Assembly (NCBI RefSeq): GCF_964199755.1 | Contig: NC_133903.1 | Location: 8,227,001-8,291,000 of the forward strand | Direction of reading: 5' to 3' | Length of the DNA: 64,000 nucleotides | From: Larus michahellis | Lineage: Eukaryota > Chordata > Aves > Charadriiformes > Laridae | Shown: in pieces, positions 2,133 through 61,599 of the stretch | How the letters are laid out: each line of letters begins with the position of its first letter | Numbering within the stretch: position 1 is the stretch's first letter | Made by a program: the position numbers and the translations under genes | The notes under the pieces: generated by a model | The model's input: only the letters and a program-made list of their open reading frames with translations | Told to the model about the DNA's origin: nothing | Database searches by the model: none

Positions 2133-5100
2133 ATGGCGCGGGCGCTGCGGGCGCTGCGGGGCGCGGTAGGGCTGGAGCGGGGTCCGGGGCCGGGCCCAGA
2201 GCGGGGTCCGCGGGTGCGGTTCGGGCCCAGCCCCACAGGTAACCCCCGGCCCCTTGCTGGGCCCTCTCCCGCCCTCCACACCCCCGCAGGTTTTGGGTTG
2301 AAAAACGTGAATTGAAATACTCCAGGAGCGGGGCGCGGCCGGTGCCGGGCGCTCCGCTGAGGTACCCCCTCGCTCTGCCCAGGGAACGGCAGCTCCCCGG
2401 GTGGGAGTCGCCCTCTCAGTGTGGAAATAAATACGGCTCGTAAGCAGCTGCAGCGTGTCGCGTCCCCTCAGAAATAGGGGAAGGTTATTTGGTCCCTTCC
2501 GGTGAAAGACCACCAAAATGGTATTTCCTAGCACGTGCCAGCTTGTAATTGATTTCCAAGTCACTTTCCACATTCTTGGAAGGCAGTTACCGATAATTTA
2601 GTTCCATAGCAAAGCCCCACAAAGCGTCTGTGCAGCACACCTCCCTGCCCCCCAGTTAGCATTTACTATCAATTTCCATTACAGGTAGCATTGCTCTTCC
2701 AGCTCATATTTAAAAATCTCTTTATTGGGCCTTAATTATTATGATCTCCTCTAATTTCCATATGATAACAGGTTTTCTGCATTTGGGTGGCCTTCGCACT
2801 GCTTTGTACAATTATATTTTTGCCAAAAAGCACCAAGGGACCTTTATTCTGAGAGTGGAGGACACAGATCAAAATCGAGTGGTGCCTGGAGCTGCAGAAG
2901 GAATAGAAGATATGCTGGATTGGGCAGGTATTTACAAACTTCTTTCATTTTTTACTCACTGAAGCAGACACACAGAAAGATCCACATCTGTGAAAGCGGC
3001 CCAATGTGCGGCTGTAACAAAGAGAGACAAGATGGAATGGTTGGAAGTTGGAGCTCACAGACCACACTGTAAACTGGTAAATTGTTTCTACATGGAGTGT
3101 TTGTTAAAGGGGATCTTGAGGTGTCAGTTTTCATTTTGAATTCTGTGCTTCTTTTTGAGCTTAAGAACTAGAAGTGAGAGTGATTTTTTTAATAAAGAAT
3201 TGTGATAAAGTTAAAGCCAGATCTCCCAGATGCTGCCATGAATGGGTAGGTAGGCTTTAAGGGACTAGGACTTTGCTGTTGAGTAGTAACTTTGAAGTAG
3301 AAAACATAATTGGCTAAGGTTTCAACTGTATTTTTGTGGTATCAGTGTTCTTTATTATAAAAAGGGTGGATGCTACTTTGTAGGTATACCCCTGACTGCA
3401 TTTTATTTTAGGTAGTGTATCAGAGCTGCTCAACTATTTACTAGGTTTTTGGTGTTTTTCCGCTTGTTGCTTCACACACAGTACTTTAAATTCTGATGAT
3501 GTTGGTTGGCTGCTGTTTATCTGCTGGGGAAGATTCCCCACCACAGGGGAATAACTCCTGTGGGTTTCACTCTGCCTTTTTCCGGGCTTTCTAAGTCCTG
3601 TCATACTGATATTTCAGGTATTCCCCCTGATGAGAGTCCTCGCCGCGGTGGTTCCTTTGGACCCTACCAGCAGTCACACAGACTTGACTTTTATAGGAGC
3701 GCCAGTGACGTGCTTTTGGAGAGAGGGGCGGCGTACCGCTGCTTCTGTACCCCTCAGCGCCTGGAACTGCTGAAGAAAGAGGCTTTGCGGAGCCAGCAGA
3801 CCCCGCGGTAGGGATTCCTTGTGCCTTGGGTGGTTCCCTCTGTGCTACACGTTTGCAAAAACTTACGTCAATGTGCACGGCAATAGGATTGTCATCTCAC
3901 TGCCCGTAGAGGGAGAAGCCAACATAACCCTTAGGGGAGTGACCCCCAGAGATGAGGTAGTTTGCTTGGACACATAGTGGGCAGGTTACAGCTAAAATTC
4001 AGGGATCGATTTAGAGTTTTGGGAATGTGAAAATGGCTGATGGGGTTGGCTTGTGTTGAACTGAGACCTTCGTTCTCCTTTCTCAAAGATATGACAACCG
4101 GTGTCGGCACCTGACGCCCACAGAAGTGGCTGAGAAGCTGTCACAGGGCCTTGACTGGGTAGTCCGCTTCCGGCTGGAGAAGGGAGTGGAACCCTTTGAG
4201 GACCTGGTCTACGGCTGGAACAAGCATGAAGTGGCTGACGTGGAAGGTGACCCAGTGATTCTCAAGGGGGACGGCTTCCCCACTTACCACCTGGCAAATG
4301 TGGTGGATGACCATTACATGGGCATCAGCCACGTTCTGCGTGGAACTGAGTGGCTGACTTCAACGTCCAAGCATCTCCTTCTCTACAAAGCCTTTGGCTG
4401 GGATCCCCCTCAGTTTGGTCATCTACCACTGCTTCTGAACAAAGACGGTGGCAAGCTGTCAAAAAGGCAAGGGGACATCTTTCTGGAGCGTTTTGCTCGA
4501 GATGGCTACTTGCCAGAGGCTCTGCTGGACATCATAACCAACTGTGGCTCTGGATTTGCAGGTAATGACAGCAGGCTCGGTACTTGCTAGGACACTTCTT
4601 GATGCTGACTTTGGGCAATGAGTTAGGTTTATTTTAATAGCCAAGAACTCTGGCAGTTTTTGAAGGGATCAGGAAGTGGGTGTTGGGCGACCAGTCTGTC
4701 ACTGAAATGCCACCAGGGCTTCTGCAGAGCTCCTGTGAAGACTGCGTGGTGTGTTGGAATGGTGGGAATATTTCTGCCTCTGTGCAGCCATTTAAAATGA
4801 GGCTGATGCTTAATGGGTTCCCACTTGGGACAACATTCATGTCAAGGTGAAGAAACTGTCTGTGAACTCTTGGGAAAACTTGTATTATGTGGTTAATAAC
4901 TGCAATGTCACGTATTACATCTGTCACACTTCTTGTTTAACCTGAAAGACCGTGAGAAGTTGAGTCAATGACTCCTTTTGTTGCTCTCGCTGTGTGGGGA
5001 TCACAAATTAACTTGTGTTTTGGGAACTCTGCTTGGGAATGAAACCTCTCTTGGGCAGTGGAGCCTCCTGGCTGAGCGTTACTAGTTTTTGGGTGACTGA

Positions 5101-25311: not shown

Positions 25312-25427
25312 ACCCTCCATTCCGCGGGTACGGTGGCCGGTAAGGGCCTTTCGGCGCGTTTCCTGGTTCCCTGTGAGGCCGCGGCCTGTGGCGGGGCCCG
25401 TCCGCCGCTGGGTCCCCACCGGCGGCG

Positions 25428-44854
<19,427 letters not shown>

Positions 44855-49923: not shown

Positions 49924-52900
49924 TCACTCGGTTTCTGCGTCGCTGTCGGGACCGAGGACATCGAGGGGCTGGACACGCAGCGAGTCGTAGTTGGGCGGGG
50001 GGGTGCCAGGCTCGGGGGGCAACGCCTCGTCCCTGGGGAGGGCACCCCCATCCTCGTGCTGGAAGCCCAGGTTGGTGTGAGCCTCCACCAGCTCCGACAC
50101 CGTCGGGGGCGCGTCCGGGTACCGCGCCTGCGCCCGCTTCTGCTTCAGACCCTTGCACCAGCCGATCACGTTAATGATGGTGATCCACAGCGAGTCGATG
50201 ATGATTTCCCCAAACTCGATGAGGCACAGCACGGAGCCCCCCATCCAGAACCCGAACTGGCCTCCCAGGCTCGACAGCAGCCAGACGATCTGCGGGGAGG
50301 AGAGGGGAGTGAGCCGAGGCGGCGGAGCCTGGTCCCTCATCAGCCCCCACCGACCACCCTGTGTGCTGGAGCAGGGCCCCCAGCTCCTCCCTGCCGAGCC
50401 CCTCGCCTCGTGGGTGCTCCCTGGTGCTGCTTCGCAGTGACCTGCCCGGCGCCGGCCATTGGGGAGGGGAGGTGGCACTCACCGTCGTGGCGGCAGACTC
50501 CGAGATGGTGCGGTAGTTGTACTCCTGGAAGTAAATGTTCAGCTTGATGATCCCGTTTCTGTAAGGGACAAACGGCAGCTCAGAGCAGAGCCGGGCCGTG
50601 GGCATCCCGCGCCTCCACTCCAAGGGCTGCCCGTGGGAAGGTCCGCGCGCAGCCCGGCCGGAGCGGCTCATGGGTGTCCACCGAAACGTCTGCCGGGCAC
50701 ATGGAAAAAGTCAAAAAGTGCCACTGACTTCGAAGGGGAAAGATGTGGTTCTGAAGTTCCTCCTGAAGAAGCATCTGGAAGCTGCTCTGGGGCTGTTTGC
50801 ATTGCTTTTCACAACTGCCCTGGCTGGTTCAGAGGGGCTGTCACCCCCCCTCGGTGCCCTGCACCTCGTGTTCCCGTGTGCGCGCACAGAGCGGCTGCAT
50901 CGCCGCCGACCGCCGTACAGGGGGCTTAGTCTGTGAAGCCATTTCCTGCTTCTCTGGTGTTTTTTTTTCCCTTTGGGGAAAAAATCTCCTCTTTTCTCCC
51001 TAATTCAGGGTTTAGGTTCTCAAAGGGTAACTGAGCAGCTGCCCTGATTTTGGTGCATCCCCCCTGCTGCCACTGCTGTTGGCAGATTCAGAGCAGTATG
51101 AAGGGACGAACGTTATGATCCAGGAGCTGGACCCTGGTGGTTCCTAGCTCGAGAGCCTCCAGACTCCTGCCTGGGGCCGATGCGAGGTACTGCGCTTAAC
51201 GCCGATTTCACCTTAACTGCATGTGTGAGTTTGTCTGACCCAGATTGTCACTCTGGAGAGCAGAGGATACGCACGAAGCGCATTTCAGGTTCCCTTGATG
51301 TATCTTCCAGGCAAACGTGGAAGATGTCCCGCCAGATCTTGCCCTCCCTTTGCATTAGCACACGTGTGCTCTGGCCCATGGCCAAGGCTCATGTTAATCC
51401 GATGTTAACAGGCTCAATGGAGATGATAAAGCGGTTGTTCCTTTCGCTTACCTGTCCAGAGTCACATTTGTTGACATATCCCTTTCATAAGACAGAATAT
51501 GGAAAATCCAGTCCTAGGAAAACAACGTTTAGTCAGAACCGAGCGGAAGCATCCTCTCTGGGCACCCCCAGGGCAGGAACCCAAGGGTCTTGGTGCGGGA
51601 CCCCCGGGGAGGAGGCGCCGCCGCGGGGGGGGTTCCCTCCTCCCATCTCGTGCCCTGGCGGCTGCTGTTTGCCTGGACGCTGAAAATGTGTAATTTAGCA
51701 AAGAGGCACTTGCCACCCAGACATTAGCTCTGAAAATACTGGGTGATTCACGTGGCTAAGAACAGGTAATTATTAATGAACGTTTCAAAACAAGAAGTCG
51801 GTGTTACCTCCGAAGCTTCTGAGGGCCAGTCTGCCATGGAGATGGTCATCTTGTACTGCGTGTCGCTGGAGAGAGGAAAGGAGAGCATTGGTACAGAAGC
51901 TTCCCCTCCCCTGAAGTCACTGGAACTTCAGTTCTCGTGCAGAAAAGCAGCCCTGCGTGGTTTGCTGCCATTTTAGAAAGGTCAGAATTGATGGGAGAGG
52001 AAACGCAGGATCCCCTCCGCCTTTACAGCTGCCAGAAATGGCGTAGGTACTTACTTGCACGTTTCCTTACAAGAGTCGATACAAATCTGCCTGTGTCTTA
52101 TACTTGATCTCAGTGACGAATAGCAATATGCTGTTTGGTGAAAACAAAAAAATCAAAGCATCTGTTTAGATAAAGACCCCGCTTACTGGATTATATCAAT
52201 TTCATTTAATGAAATAGATATTTAGCTACGAGCCTGCTCCGCAGGTTTGCTGTCTTCCCCTCCAACCTTCCTTTCCTTGAGAAACTCGGGCAAAGCGGCC
52301 ACGCAATTGAATAATAAATTAAAAATACATTTTAATTTTCTGCAGGCAGTTTCTACGGAGTCAGCTTGCCCGGTGTCAGTGTTTTCGGCACAGCCCTGCA
52401 GGGGTAGGAGGGCGGCTGCTGCCGGCTTCTGCTCGCCCAGGGAACACCGTTTTCCCCCCCAGCCATACTCATCCTCGCGGGAGCCCATTGCCCCTGCTCG
52501 GACCAGTTTGTCTCTGAACTCTTCAGGCACAGAGGCCTGGAGCATCACCCCTTTTCCTCTTCCTTTGGTACCCAGAGGCTCCCATTACCTGCCCCGGCTG
52601 GAGGCAGCCGTCTGGGAGAGACCTGCCCCGGGGCAGCGCGGAAGCTGAGGTCCCTCAGCCCGTGGCCAGGACCAAGATTTCACCCCTTCTCCCCCAACAC
52701 TGACGCCAACGGCCATGGGGAAACTGTACAAAAGCCAAAGCCATTCACCTGTTGCATTTATAATAGCAATAAATATAATAGCTCCCGCCCCTCCTGCCTG
52801 CCGGGACCCTGGGAAGGCTCTGCAATGAGTGTTGTTCGTGTTCTTACCCCAACCTGGGTTATCTTCGTTATTGCAATAATTTACCCCTTCAGGTAAAGGA

Positions 52901-55900
52901 AACATATAGTGACCACATCCACAGATTTCAATCATGTGATTTTGGAAACAAGAGCGCAGGCAAGCCTGAAAAAGGGAAGAGGGAGCTGCTTAGACGTGGG
53001 CTGAACCCCCCTGCCCGCCTCTGCGCTGCCAGAGTCTACGCTGGCTGTGAGAATTACTCGGCTCTGAGGTATTTTCTCATTTTTTGCATTGAACAGAGGA
53101 TTTTGTGGCTGTACACAGAGAAGGTCGAAGCCGCAGAGGGAGCGGGTGCTGCCGGAGCCCACCCCTGCACGATGCCGTGATCCCATCCCATCCCTGCGTG
53201 ACGGCATGATCCCATCCTCCAGTGTGCCCTGAGCATCCCGGGCGGCACAAATCACACTCCCTTTACAATGGTGAGAGGAGGCGAGCGGATAAGCTGCCGC
53301 GCGCAGAGTTGCGCTGCAGTTAGGGTTCTCCTTGTGACGCATTTTTACTGCTGCTCCTCCAGATTTTAAGGTACGTCCCGGTTGTGAGCTGCCGGCGGGT
53401 AAGTCACCTCGCGGGAGCAGAAGGGAACTCAGTGCCTGCTCCCAGTCGCACAAGAAACTGCTCATTTCTTAACTATTTAGGGCTTCGTGGAAGTAATAAG
53501 GAGTTTCCAAAAAGGAATAAAAACATTCTGTTACATCCATAGACGCTGCTGTTGTCTCCGGGCTTCATACGGCGTACCAAAAAAGGGCTGGTTTCCACTT
53601 TAAAGCCGGGACTCTAAAAATACTTCAACATAAAGAGCAGGTTTTAGAAATACAAATTATCCTATCTTGTGCATCTGCTTCTCTCCTTGGAAGGATTGCC
53701 GCCGCGGCTTCGGCAGCTGCCGTTAGCTCAGCGAGGCATGACGCTAATCACCTGAGATCGGAGCGGGATCCTGGATGAACCAGCGCACAAAGCAATAACA
53801 GAGTCTATGAAAAGATAATTAAATTTAACAGCTCCAGCTAGGTAGAACAACCCGAGAATTTCGGTGCGATACAGAACGCTTACAGAGTTCGCCGCCATCG
53901 GGGAGGGATGGAAAAGCCCGATTTTGCTGAGAGGTCTCTGAAGTGACGTGAATTATGTGGACGCAGAACTCCAGCCAGCATTTAGCAACTTTTAAGTAAT
54001 AATGCAATCATTTCAAGTATTTGCTGAAACGTTATACAAGCATCTCAAAAAGTAGGGTAAAGTGGTCCGATTGTTCTCATTATATAAAGGCAAGAACGTT
54101 AAAACCCCCTGCTAAGACCGAAGCCCTCCCACTTGTCTGGGGTGTCTTCTTCAGGCTCTTGTAAATAACCCCCAAAATGCTTTTGATGTTTTCCTTATTG
54201 CCACCCTCCAGAAATGCTTCTCCCTTATGTTATGGCCTGTTACAAATTAACCAGTGCTTCATGTTTACACTATATTTTTCTACAGATTCAAGGTTTACAA
54301 ACACTCAACTTTCTCATCCCGATTTTAAAGTGAGGAAAAAGGCAAAGGTCTGTCTTCATTTCCCACGCAAAACGAGCAGGCATTTTCAGGGTGAAAAAAT
54401 GACTTAAAAGGCTTAAAAAGAGTAGGAGCGTTCAGGAGAGGAACCCCTCCTGTATATTTCTCTCCTGTCAGGGATAAATATGACATGTGTACACAAAATA
54501 CAAGCTGCTTTGCACATGGGAGGAATGTCATGGGGCACAAAAACTAAACCCCGGAGCCCAACAGTTCTCCAGAGAGCCCTGAGCAGCAGGAACCAGAACT
54601 GCTGGAAAGGGCTACCAAGGTGATCAGGGGACTGGAACACCTCTCTTAGGAAGAAAGGCTGAGGGATTTGGGTCTTTTTAGTCTGGAAAAAAGACGGCTG
54701 AGGGGGGATCTCATCAACGCTTACAAATACTTAAAGGGTGGGTGTCAGGGGGATGGGGCCAGGCTCTTTTCAGTGGTGCCCGGGGACAGGACAAGGGGTA
54801 ACGGGCACAAACTTGACTGTGGGAAGTTCCACCTAAAGGTGAGGAGGAACTTCTTTACCCTGAGGGTGGCAGAGCCCTGGCACAGGCTGCCCAGGGAGGT
54901 GGTGGAGTCTCCGTCTCTGGAGACATTCCAACCCCGCCTGGACGCGTTCCTGTGCAACCTGCTCTGGGTGACCCTGCTCTGGCAGGGGTTGGACTAGATG
55001 ATCTCCAGAGGTCCCTTCCAACCCCGGCCATGCTGTGATTCTGTGATTCTGTGAAAGGTGTCACATTAACGTCACAGCAAAAGCTTCCCAGAGCTGCAGT
55101 GACCGTTCCCGCTGCTGTCCTGGCTATGGCAACACACGCAGCTGTGGGGATTGCTCAACAAGCCCTTGAGTTTAGAGAATTTAGCCTGTTGGACATGGAT
55201 AACAACTACAGCCTACCCAACAACTAGATCGACCCCTTGCTAGTTGATCTACGTATAATTAAAAGCTTTCAGCCAAGCATGGAAATCGTAGGGGGGAAGA
55301 AAGGTATTCTCACAGCTGAAAAAGTAATTAATTGCCTTAATGGTGTGGCATGAGCAGTTATTCTTTTTGAAGGAGAAAACCTGCTCTGCAGCCTCCTGTG
55401 GCTTTGGTGGGCAGCCGGCAGAGGGGAGCCGCTCCGCGTTCCCAACTGGACACGCTGGAAGATGTCTTTTCCCGGTGTTTCCCACATTATTAAGGAACTG
55501 GCATTAGCCAAAGCTGTTGGGAGTTTCAGCCTGTTTCGGATGCTCTCCCCTGCACCTGCTGGCTCTGTCACCTTGGGGCGCCAGCAGTCAAAAAGGGGGG
55601 AAAAAACCAAAGAACCAGCAGGTTTTAAGGGACCAACGTCCCAGGCGCACCCTGCGCTCGCTTTGCCTGGTTTTCGGGATGAGTGGGAACCCTCCACTTC
55701 GGGGAGCCGAGCTCTGAGGCCACGGGAAAGGACCAGCATTAAACTGCGCTCGTATGTGGAGCTAAAAATACCTGCTTTTTTGTCTGCAAATTAGCACTTT
55801 GCTGGAAGGTCACCCAGGGCAGGGTCCCGGGTAACAGCAGAGACCCTGGGAGGTTTGCTGCGTTTCAGCTTTTGAGAAAATGACAGAAACGACCACTTTC

Positions 55901-58900
55901 CTCCCTCTCAAAATGAAACAAAATTCATACCTGGCTAAGGGAACATCAACTGCGGATGCCCTTTCCTGGCCGTACGAGCTGTTTTGGTGTGAGAATGAAA
56001 ACCGGAGATTACGCTAAACTGTGCCGCCTGCCAAGGCAATGTTCCTTATCTTTTGATGCAAGTCTGAATACCTGCATCGTTAGCTCTTCCTCCTGCAATA
56101 CACAGTTATTTTCACTGGATCCACTGGGATAGTTTCCAAACCTGGGGCTACTGAGCGTCCAGACTCAAGTGGTGGTTTATTACCAGAAAAGAAGGTTCCT
56201 GTACTTAGGTTATGCTTTCTACTTTAGCATTGCTGATGCTCCAGGAACCCTGCGTGCTACTCAAAGATTTCAACTGCCTTGATGGTGTTTCCTAAACAGC
56301 CTTGTTTGATTTAAACAAAACCCGTGTTTTACCTGTATGGAATAGGACGTATTATATTGGCTATAGAGATTTTTTACGGGGACATCAGACCCGTTCATGG
56401 TGCAGTCGCTGTAAGGATAGCCCATCCGTTCCAGTTCATCCTGAAAGAAAACCGAAAACAGCAAACTTCAGCAGATAGCGCTCCTCCCCAGGGCCCTGGT
56501 GCCCGTTTTCTAGAGACTCTATAATTCCTGTATTCCCCGCTGGCTTTGAAAAAAAAATCCAAGAATCATAGGCGGCAGAGCTGAAGCAGCCCATTCCCCA
56601 GGGCCGGATCGCGGCAGGTGAGGCTGTTCAAGAGCAAGGCACCTTCTGGCATGCTAAAGGAAGAGGAAACAATGACCTGAGCTCAATATTTTGGCTTCAA
56701 TAAAGCACTTTGCTGGGACAGTTACATAAAAGTCTCCATAAAGCGTTCCAGCCCCCAGCTAGCGTATGCCTTGATTCTTTTGGTTTGAGCCAGTTCAGCC
56801 AAGACTTAAAACAAACTTGGTTGCAGTCCCATCAGATAACATTATTCTCAGACAATCTGCTCTAGAGGAATGCCACACATACCACTAACACGCCGATGGA
56901 GGTTTCCGTCCCGGCCATTGCATAGATGCCCTGATCCTTAAGGAAGGGGAAGCTCTTCTGTTGATGCAGCATGAGCCTGGCCCCGGCAGCGGATGACAGG
57001 TAGGGGATATAGTCCTGCTGGCTGATGTCCAGAATTAACTTCAGCCCTGGGATACCAGAAAAAAACACTCAGAAGAGGATTTGTATCGAAATGTGAGTCT
57101 TTGGGGAAAAAAAAAAAAAAAAAGAGTCTATTTTCTTCTCGCCGTGCGCAAAAACCTCCGTTCTGTGGGGAAAAGCCGGGGTCTGGCTGCCATTGCAGCC
57201 TTGCATGTGCATAAATACACAGGACAGCGAATCCACAGGATGGGAATATCTGATAGAATGTTCAGACGTTGCCTCAGATACTTCAGCTATCCAGATGTTG
57301 CACTTCTGCAAAGTAACACCTGTAGTGGCATCACGTGTTTCTACGTGGCACATTCCCCTTGTAGGGGTTTATCCCCTCCTGGAAAAGTTACTCCCTGCTG
57401 GAGCGCTCCAGAGACACAGAAATCATAAATCTGTTATATCTGACAGAAATGGCCACTGAGAGAAAGGATAACTCCCAGCTCTTCTGCTCCTTTAGCTCCT
57501 TCCCCCTTAGCAAAGCTCTCTCTTACCAAACTCAGCTCCAGGGTTGGAAGAATTCAAAGCCTCTTCGTCCATGCCCCAGTTAAAGATGTAGCAGTTCCCG
57601 TGGTCTGGGTGATAGATTTGGGTGAAATTCCTGGAAGAATCATGCACATAAACCCGTGACTCTCAGGCAGGACTAAAGGGTGGTAAAAGAATTAATCTGG
57701 TGGGACCGGTGCTTGGTGGTTAGGTCTGGGATTCACTTTAAATTGCTTGGTTTGTTGAACGCCTGTATAGAAATTTCAGCTGATATAATTTCAATCAATC
57801 TGCTGTTGAAAAAAAAAAAAAGCAAAGCAGGGTACCGGTGTGTACTGAGACACGGCCACTGGGGATAACGCTTTGTCGGAACATAAAGGACTCATCTGTC
57901 ACGCAGATGAGACAGAAATAATTGCTTGATCTGAGCAATGGTAACAGCTTTTGGCTGGTGTTATCTCTCGTTCTTTGATACTAATTCTCTCTTCCTCTCT
58001 TTGCAGAAGGGGCAGGACTCCCTGCAGCCCGGGGTGCTGGCGTGCACTCACGTTTCTCAAAACTGTATGTATAAATTCGGCGTTCACAAGAAATAACGAT
58101 GGTTAAAATGCATTTCTCAGAGCCCTGTGTAAAAAGAGGGGGGGCTGTAACTGGGGGTTGTGCCAGGGGTACCCTGACTCAGCACCTGGGCTGGCAGCTG
58201 GGTATCGCTAAATACCCTGGGAAGGTCCCACAGATGCTGTTGGTATTGATACACTATGAGCAAAACAGCCCATCCAAAATAATACTCAAGCCAGCACTAT
58301 CCCAAATTAACCCGTTTCATCCACGATCACATCCAGAAACCTTCTGGGAAATGTTGTTAGAGTTAAGGATCAGCAGAAATCTCTTTATCAACTGATGTAT
58401 ACCTCAAAAAGAGAAAAGAAAAAGGCTGTCACGCCTTTAGCATCCTGTACCATTCCTGATGGGACAGAAAAGGGCACAGAAGAAGGCAGGGAGCTCGGTA
58501 TGTACCTACTTGTAGTTGCAGGGTTCGGCCCCATAGAGACACGCCAGGATCATGTCTTCTGCCTGGTAGCCCATCCTGATTCTCTCTTGCAGGGGGACTT
58601 TGGAGAGGATGCTGGTGGACTGCAGGATGTACCACTCCGTCACCGCCTGCGCCGCGCTGGTGAAGTTCCTGTAGGTGCAGTTGTCGGAGCCCTGATGGCT
58701 GCACTGGGGACACACAGCAGGCAGGTCTGAGCCTGTCCCATGTTGGGGGACAGCAGGAGAGATGTACGGCGTGCACACCCTCTCCCTGCACGCTCGGCTT
58801 GGTGCCAGCCCTGCCTGCTGCTCCCGGGGGAACGAGGGAGGTATGGCCAGACAGGAGCTGCGGAGCCGGCTCTCACATCCGTATGTGCTTACAGATGGGT

Positions 58901-61599
58901 CCCTCCCCAGGGAGATTTCCCAGCTGGGCAGATTCTCCATCAGTCCCAGCGTTATCTCTGCAAGCTTACAGAAAATATCACTTTTTGGCCAATTCCATAA
59001 GGCTGGCGTTGCCCCAGCTTCCAAGGTCTGTTCAGGCAGAGTCCTTGGAGCCTCCGTGGGGCAGAGGGTGCGGGTTGTGAGACCACCATGTGCCTCTGCG
59101 TGAGGACCACAGCAGGAGAGGGACAGGGGCGGCAGCCGAAGCCTCTCCCTGGCATTTTGGGTGCCGGACCCAAGGAACTGGTGAAGGTGGCGGGGAGCCT
59201 GTGTGGAGCTCCTCTGCCCCGGCTGCGCTGGGAGACCCCAGAGCACGTACAGCATTGTCCCCTGCGCGGCCGGCAGGCTCCACTGACCAACGCTGTGCAC
59301 AGCGCGGTTACTGCCCGTTGGCCACCAACTTTTCCAGCATCCCTCTCGCCAGAGGCTGACGGACCTGCTGGCAGGATCCACTCCATGCCTCTGATGCAGT
59401 GCTGGGCTGCTACGCACCGTCGGTCCTTTTTTCCGTGGGGCACCTGCTGATCATACTGATGTTACGCAGCTATGAAAAATTCACCACAGACTAACATAAC
59501 ATGGCTCCTTGCTGAGTTTCCTTTCCTTTAGGGAAGAATATTTAGGGTACGATCCTGCCGTATGCAGAAATCCAGCAGCTTCGGTCAGGTATCTGGCTGC
59601 GTGGGGATCTGCGGGGGATCAGACACCCCTCTGATATTTAAAAAAATCTTAAGATGTCTCTGTGCTGCCTTCCTCAAAAAACCAAGCAAATGGCTCTGCA
59701 GCATTGAAATAATGTGCCATAACTTGCAAACTGCCCATGGGCTCCATGTGCCCTGTACCGCGGGTGCTGCCAGCACGGGCAGCTCCGGGCCCCGGCCCAG
59801 CCGGACCAGAGCACCGAGGCAGAACGGCCACGGGCAGCTGGTGAGGAAGAGACTCTTCAAGATCAAGAGATCTCCATGCTGCAGCTCTGCCAAGATGCCC
59901 AGCGCTACCCGTCCCTTGTCCCTCCCCGTCTGCCTCCCGCGGGACCCCTCTCACCAGCTTCACTGCCAGCTTGTACTTCTTCTCTTCCGACGTCGCATTG
60001 GCTGGGGCAGGCGGAGGAGCTGTTTGGTTGCCCACAGCGGTTTGGTTGTCCACAGCGGTTTCATTGCCCGCAGCCGTTTGGTTGCCCACGGCGGTTTCAT
60101 TGCCCGCAGCCGTTTGGTTGCCCACAGCGGTTTCATTGCCCACAGCCGTTTGGTTGCTTGCAGTGGTTTCATTGCCCGCAGTGGTTTGGTTGCCTGCAGT
60201 GCTTTGGTTGCCCGCAGCGCCTTGGTTGCTCTCAAAGATGTCCAGGATGACGGGGTTGTCTTTGTCGTGCTCGTCGATGAGGACCAGGGGTATCTGGTGC
60301 CAGAGCTCCAGGTCGAGCGGTGGGGAGATGTTCTCGCTGCTGTTCCCTGGTGTGGGCTGCAGGATCCTCTCCAGCGCCGCCTCGATAAGCCTGTCCAGTT
60401 CTTTCAGCAGATGCTTCACCTCTGAGTATCTGCAGGACAAAGAGCAGTTACCAAGCGATGTTAAGGTTATGGGGACATGCAGCAGCTCCTCTGTTGCTCC
60501 GCTGGGCTGGACCTTCCTGGGGAGCTCAGATCCCTGCCTAAAGATTTACTGGAGAATGATGGGAGCTTCCATGCAGTGCATGGCCAGTTGGGACACGGGC
60601 ATCCCAGCAGCCTCCAGCCATCTGGAAAACCAGCCAGAGGATAAACAGTGGTAGGATAAACAGCGAGAGGAAAACCAGCGAGAGTTCTGCGGCGGTGAAT
60701 GGTGTTCTGTCAGTGCAGAACCGAATTGGTTGTATTTCGGTAATTCACTATAGTTTATGCAAAACCCTTGCCTTGGGCTACACTGTTGCATGGATATAAA
60801 TTTGAAGCAACTCTAACAAAAATCAGTTGCTCCTCTGAAATTACAATCGAGTTATATCACTGCAGCTCCCAGCAGACACGACTGTTTAACCAGCTCTTAA
60901 TGGCCGGAGCATGAGCGATAAGAGGTACGTTCATGGCGAGGAAGGAGAAAGAAAGGAATTGTGGGGAAAGATCGAGAGACTGATTTTCATTGTGACAAGC
61001 GAGTTGAACTTCGAGTTTTCCCTGAGCCAGGGAAAGTTTGCAGGGAGGCAATAACCATCATTAGATTAACTGATACAGTAAGGAAAAGCAGGCGAACTCG
61101 CAGGCACACGAACGCTCCTCTGGAGCTGAGCCGTTCACCCTTACATTGTTCTCCTTTATTTGGTTTTTAGTGACACTTTGGGAGTCAAAGGATCATTTTC
61201 ATTAATATGACATCTGAGACAGGAACGGACCCACAGTCCCTTATGCTAGCAGTATAAAAATAAATCAATTAGGCAAAGAAAAACTTACTTGAAAGGGTTG
61301 GCATTGCAGACCGTGACCGCCGGGAACTTCATGGTCTTAAAGCCAATAGAGAGAGATGAGGTGACGTTGTAGGAGAGGTAGGTGTTGATGAGGATACCCC
61401 ACTGCCAGAAGACCAGAGAGGCAAAGAGCAAGGTTAGGAAGAACCAGATTAATTTCTTCTTGGGCCCCTCTTTGATGATGCGCTTCGGGCCGTGGGTGTT
61501 GGTGTTGTCGCAGTACCAGACCAGCAGCTCCTTGTAGGTGTAGCCAGGGCCCTTCTGCAGGCGGTGCAGCGCCCGAACGAAGTACTTCTTCAGGTTCAT
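49924..61599 (-). CDS. SCNN1B: SCNN1B, epithelial sodium channel (ENaC) beta subunit
   Basis: Twelve coding exons on the minus strand: 61599-61289, 60429-59955, 58703-58510, 57630-57527, 57046-56883, 56440-56333, 52965-52848, 52130-52055, 51865-51808, 51513-51452, 50558-50483 and 50289-49924. They total 2,112 nt, 703 residues, against 640 in human; most of the excess is the exon 3 repeat. ENaC alpha/beta/gamma trimers carry amiloride-sensitive apical Na+ uptake. Visible features: the gating His-Gly at 36-37 (NTHGPKR), TM1 about 50-71, the post-TM1 motif [12 protein letters not shown], the Cys-rich extracellular domain, and TM2 about 583-620 with the pore region [14 protein letters not shown]. 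The C-terminal PY motif PPPNYDSL (679-686) binds NEDD4-2, and the PPPNY form identifies beta. The start is the ATG at 61599. An acceptor 8 nt upstream (exon begins 61607) implies a separate non-coding first exon, as in human. Oddities: the sequon array, Lys at residue 43, and a missing beta-specific Cys pair. Confidence 0.96.
54580..55053 (+). mobile_element. CR1 LINE 3' end, antisense within SCNN1B intron
   Basis: A comparatively well-preserved CR1 3' end. The C-terminal part of ORF2 stays open from 54668 to 54997 ([40 protein letters not shown]). It is followed by the 3' UTR and the repeated tail 'gattctgtgattctgtga'. It lies between SCNN1B exons 52965-52848 and 56440-56333, opposite to the gene's transcription. 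It is not a host gene. Confidence 0.92.
60021..60227 (-). repeat. 18-bp in-frame tandem array encoding N-glycosylation sequons in SCNN1B exon 3
   Basis: Eleven full 18-nt units (60227 down to 60030) plus a 9-nt partial unit (60029-60021) encode six-residue repeats of the form N-Q/E-T-A/T-A/V-G. They run from Asn172 to Thr240. The first unit reads NQGAAG and is not a sequon. The next eleven Asn residues are all N-X-S/T: one NQS, then ten NQT or NET. The array ends in a Pro/Ala stretch with another sequon (NAT, 248-250), and two more precede it (NSS, NIS). Because 18 is a multiple of 3, the array is open in every frame on both strands, which creates long spurious reading frames. Confidence 0.95.

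Follow-up and report, generated by a model that had tools for sequence, protein, structure and literature searches.

We analysed a 64,000-nucleotide stretch of the Larus michahellis genome (NC_133903.1, positions 8,227,001 to 8,291,000; hereafter the window, whose own numbering is used unless a contig handle is given). The window carries a gene that, judged by its sequence, is SCNN1B, which encodes the beta subunit of the epithelial sodium channel (ENaC). Exon 3 of this gene holds an in-frame tandem array of eleven consecutive 18-bp units (60212..60015, minus strand), each encoding one N-X-S/T sequon. ENaC governs the uptake of sodium by epithelia, including those of the kidney, gut, and lung. 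With middling confidence, we regard the gene as an apparently working SCNN1B in which a coding minisatellite has grown within a permissive, disordered outer loop, where it would most likely form a brush of N-glycans.

Results

The repeat and its surroundings were read from Tandem Repeats Finder, a listing of the units, and the spliced translation:

60015..60212, minus strand: eleven whole 18-bp repeat units with a 36-bp higher-order period (Tandem Repeats Finder, unit listing)
60021..60209, minus strand: eleven consecutive sequons, N178..T240, NQS followed by ten NQT/NET (spliced translation, unit listing)
60213..60230, minus strand: unit 0, S-N-Q-G-A-A, unit-like but lacking a sequon (unit listing)
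59991..59999, minus strand: twelfth sequon, N248 (NAT) (spliced translation)

The array sequons occur every six residues, from N178 through N184 to N238, and the codons from N178 to T240 run from 60209 to 60021. Ten of the eleven are NXT and one is NQS; the middle residue is glutamine in seven and glutamate in four. Tandem Repeats Finder reported the array at a period of 18 bp (11.8 copies, 78% matches, score 228) and, with a higher score, at 36 bp (5.6 copies, 87% matches, score 264), and these two rows scored highest among the seven obtained for the whole window. The 36-bp higher-order unit appears as an alternation of NQT and NET over much of the array. Two pairs of units (6 and 8, 5 and 9) are identical, and most units differ from each other. 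Unit 0, which precedes the array, has GGC in the position occupied by AGC in unit 1 and by ACC in unit 2. The twelfth sequon lies ten residues past N238, after PPPAPA. As a repeat, the array is far beyond chance, and the eleven-sequon array that the first-pass annotation had placed at residues 178-240 was recovered at that position in the minus-strand reading. The intron immediately preceding exon 3 has a smaller tandem repeat at 60631..60684, with 3.6 copies of a 15-bp unit.

The exons of SCNN1B were located by tblastn with human SCNN1B, and exon ends and splice sites were chosen by eye. The human query is identical to PDB chain 6wth_B. The gene was traced from 61599 to 49924 on the minus strand and comprises 12 coding exons and 11 introns, all of them GT-AG:

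61289..61599, minus strand: first coding exon (called exon 2), from the ATG, 78.8% identical to human residues 1-104 (tblastn)
59955..60429, minus strand: coding exon 3, 475 bp, acceptor ..CTGCAG, donor GTGAGA (splice-site reading)
58510..58703, minus strand: exon 4, from C263 (tblastn)
49924..57630, minus strand: exons 5 to 13, through the stop, with PPPNY (tblastn)

The joined frame encodes a 703-residue beta-ENaC with no stop. The length of exon 3 is not a multiple of three, so skipping this exon would shift the frame. Identity to human beta amounts to 115 of 167 aligned residues on the N-terminal side of the loop and 313 of 445 on its C-terminal side. A search of the PDB returned 30 sequences at E up to 1, and the three with E below 0.1 were all beta-ENaC (best 4.4e-15). 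By these sequence matches, the gene is beta-ENaC (SCNN1B). A pseudogene was ruled out by the intact 703-residue frame and the GT-AG borders of all introns, and an intronic repeat by the position of the array in an open exon flanked on both sides by homologous residues. The spliced frame of 12 exons thus bears out the earlier proposal that the array lies inside an ordinary coding exon of a beta-ENaC gene. A Pfam domain search of exon 3 gave five weak matches, none over the cut-off. In the first coding exon (61289..61599), human beta C43 and C64 correspond to K and F, respectively; we take C43 to be a palmitoylation site in mouse beta.

The array stands in place of human beta residues 168-189. 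The stretch between VLDLF and KMAMRL has 22 residues in human and 87 in Larus michahellis, in agreement with the earlier statement that the human loop between VLDLF and the MRLC segment is short. The two proteins (human chains 6wth_B and 6bqn_B) share the gene by sequence, the segments flanking the loop, PPPNY, and 16 of the 18 human ectodomain cysteines; the two that are missing, C184 and C189, both belong to the loop. In contrast to the human loop, which has these cysteines and no sequon, the Larus michahellis loop has no cysteine and 12 sequons, bringing the whole chain to 23 against 11 in human. With 11, human beta is already described as having the most predicted N-glycosylation sites.

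The 2020 cryo-EM model of human beta covers residues 139-167 and 179-481, leaving 168-178 unmodelled (PMC7413742), and the human loop is described as having an extra, beta-only ninth disulfide near the beta-gamma interface. We infer that C184 and C189 form this disulfide in the GRIP domain, although the source passages name no residues, and by that assignment Larus michahellis SCNN1B lacks it. The ninth disulfide is a structural feature of the human protein and not a criterion of orthology; the gene is therefore still filed as beta. The array fills a loop that is partly unmodelled in human, without the cysteines thought to order it. Noreng 2018 regards the C-terminal side of strand P2 as the likely location of the second protease site, and the array begins just after P2, at the counterpart of this inferred site in alpha and gamma. 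This matches the first-pass view of the region as the equivalent of the protease-activation part of these subunits. The array loop contains no arginine and two lysines, and on this composition a protease-activation site is unlikely there.

The basic motifs are kept in the same genome, where the alpha exon has ..KRSSRS..RRQKRD.. and its gamma counterpart ..SKVRRS..GQKRK..; they are close to the tabulated chicken motifs, RTSR/RQKR in alpha and KVRR/RKRK in gamma (PMC8791634). The P1-P3 region of alpha and gamma GRIP is described as disordered in the human map, a likeness to the array loop. The two subunits differ from it in their basic protease sites, and no sequon array was found in the matched alpha and gamma exon pieces of this genome. 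The likely GRIP exon frame of delta-ENaC (C20, L012 6400..6729, minus strand; 110 residues) likewise has several sequons, five in all, of which one is probably intronic. In contrast to the SCNN1B array, they are scattered and mutually unlike, and no tandem repeat was seen in that frame. A further gene on C9 that matches the ENaC family gave weak matches only to the ENaC queries; we take it to be ASIC5-like.

A 251-bp query covering the array matched one place in the 1.4-Gb genome, in a search that passes over simple repeats and very common words. A mobile-element or satellite origin was rejected as far as tested, since the array DNA occurs at a single genomic place. A protein search of the genome for sequon arrays yielded 32 matches with E no greater than 10, including the SCNN1B array, and nine non-array loci among them were scanned for sequon density; the search leans to the composition of the query and is no census. 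One of the nine is a perfect 18-bp repeat of 19.2 copies (C9:56010858-56011100, L022 1407..1752) that in one frame reads (NSTAWR)n, with 11 sequons per 66 residues. It serves as a null example and indicates that 18-bp repeats reading as sequon arrays arise elsewhere too. The other eight loci had 1 to 4 sequons per 66 residues. They include a short repeat in the style of the SCNN1B array (C4:23254158-23254277, L027), which reads ..VGNASAVGNASAPAS.. and has 18- and 36-bp periods with 71-75% matches.

Discussion

The array could have started when one site turned into a sequon, as GGC in unit 0, AGC in unit 1, and ACC in unit 2 would form a path of few base changes; the sequon-bearing unit would then have been copied in frame. 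The loop is predicted to be extended and to lie outside the membrane. Since ten of the eleven sites are also NXT, oligosaccharyltransferase would fill most of them. An N-glycan weighs about 2 kDa, and the added glycan would come to roughly 20 kDa, carried as a flexible brush. Such a brush would act mainly sterically, and perhaps shield the outer face of GRIP together with the interface close by. NXS sites, including closely spaced ones, are skipped more often than NXT sites (PMC4750078), which would favor good occupancy at ten of the eleven array sites. Two reviews report that ENaC subunits require N-glycans to mature and reach the cell surface, and that these glycans affect activation by proteases (PMC10178586, PMC10148893); one of the two puts the number of glycosylated asparagines at 5 to 12 per subunit.

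The pattern of change among the units suggests that the sequons have been kept. Parsimony over units 1-11 by heuristic search gave 46 shortest trees of 16 changes. Two changes fell in the N codon and three or four in the S/T codon, and all of them kept the sequon: they are C/T in the third position of the Asn codon, Thr changes at the third base, and one Thr/Ser exchange. In the remaining codons of the unit, a hand count on the parsimony trees gave 8 residue-altering changes out of 11, or 7 out of 10. Comparison of sequon-breaking changes with residue-altering changes elsewhere gave a Fisher p of 0.026 or 0.011, and the chance that all N and S/T changes would keep the sequon at random is about 0.001 to 0.004. 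These sequon-keeping substitutions hint that glycans, and not a spacer alone, may have been maintained.

Several points weigh against a selected glycan brush. The retention p values are optimistic, because the array was picked for its intact sequons, and the tests assume independent changes, yet the copying of repeats makes them non-independent. Unit 0 was left out of the counts; with it, one of 12 units lacks a sequon. A stricter test, in which a residue change was scored on both sides (1/5 against 8/11 or 1/6 against 7/10), gave p of 0.11 or 0.12, and for this reason we gave our best explanation less weight and a neutral repeat more. Homogenisation between units could keep the sequons without selection. 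The evidence for selection is thin and biased, and argues weakly for it. Occupancy may be reduced by the six-residue spacing and by the glutamate that four of the sites have at X. The brush is also proposed from the DNA of one genome of one species, in which the copy number of the repeat could be wrong.

Such an error, or a rare allele, would make the array an artefact of the assembly. Short tandem repeats are at times misassembled, and a single assembly is the source. We consider this very improbable, since most units differ from each other, the surrounding gene is intact, and the array has a single genomic place with no second haplotype copy found. The serious rival is a neutral coding minisatellite, which we hold to be a real if tentative possibility: the loop would tolerate an in-frame hydrophilic repeat, the sequon would be there by happenstance, and any glycans would be invisible to selection. 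The perfect 18-bp repeat on C9, which likewise reads as a sequon array, is consistent with this explanation, as are the identical unit pairs 6/8 and 5/9, which are expected from recent copying, and the lack of a significant deficit of residue changes in the sequon codons under the stricter test. In contrast, N and S/T are kept in diverged units while the other four positions change residue, which counts against a neutral repeat.

Two further proposals give the glycans a more specific role. As a special case of the brush, and not exclusive of it, the glycans may serve as a mechanosensory tether that binds the extracellular matrix and raises the response to shear, which we think unlikely. Its model is the engineered delta-ENaC of Barth 2021 (PMC7958617), in which sequons were likewise added to the outer domain of an ENaC subunit: the added N-glycosylation motifs raised the shear response, and the effect in the double construct was largely abolished by hyaluronidase. 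That system was made by mutagenesis of one or two sites mimicking palm and knuckle sites of alpha, and involves no GRIP array. In the same report, the position of the glycan mattered and the effective sites were those of palm and knuckle, not GRIP; loss of the intrinsic delta sites N166, N211 or N384 changed nothing; three alpha sites were without effect; one of the two added delta motifs gave no visible mass shift; and a study cited there replaced several asparagines with no obvious change in shear activation. The other proposal, compatible with the brush and in our view similarly doubtful, is that the array limits protease access to neighbouring sites, those of gamma above all, and so tunes activation. 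The location of the human loop, with its extra disulfide, near the beta-gamma interface fits such a shield, as do the basic motifs kept in alpha and gamma of the same genome and the reviewed effect of N-glycosylation on protease activation, but the brush could point away from gamma.

On balance, we favor a steric glycan brush above a tether or a protease shield, and regard a neutral repeat as a serious rival. At low probability, we also envisage that a bird lineage has a repeat-expanded, multi-glycan arm of beta-ENaC that is selected and adjusts channel gating, either through force borne by the matrix or through how readily proteases gain access at the beta-gamma interface. In this equally speculative form, the arm would be a natural counterpart of the engineered tether, with a strength set by the repeat number and perhaps varying among individuals. 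The first-pass annotation had called the putative patch mucin-like. The high density of sites supports the term, but the predicted linkage is N- and not O-linked, so that the fit is loose. Mucin-type coding minisatellites, such as MUC1, similarly are in-frame tandem repeats dense in glycosylation sites; they bear O-glycans, whereas the SCNN1B array consists of N-glycan sequons. The array would offer a clear-cut example of a coding minisatellite that builds an N-glycan rather than an O-glycan brush.

Sequons have previously been engineered into ENaC to probe force sensing; here, eleven consecutive ones occur in one loop in a natural genome. The repeat number would offer a natural dose series for relating GRIP glycans to cleavage, self-inhibition, and shear response. 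Among the matches listed in the open-licence PMC literature, there was no ENaC subunit with such an array, which agrees with the earlier remark that none was known; supplementary alignments on ENaC evolution may include such birds. The passages at hand of a study of hen SCNN1B expression, which has the gene expressed in the uterus and gives primers, are silent on the array loop (PMC3851161).

Other features of the window and its surroundings

SCNN1G adjoins SCNN1B, with gamma exons upstream on the same strand (C12:8.306-8.317 Mb). Downstream of SCNN1B, both on the plus strand, are exons within 25377..44854 that we take, from their open reading frames, to be COG7-like, and, at 4060..4590, an EARS2-like exon with a domain of the glutamyl-tRNA synthetase type. 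This order of gamma, COG7-like, and EARS2-like genes resembles the human order. Searches of the window with Rfam, at the gathering threshold, and with ARAGORN gave no match. In keeping with an avian source, a beta-globin piece of 117 residues from the genome had as its best matches haemoglobin chains that are mostly those of birds. The SCNN1B intron between exons 7 and 8 contains, at about 54560..55050, what we take to be a CR1-like element of the avian type.
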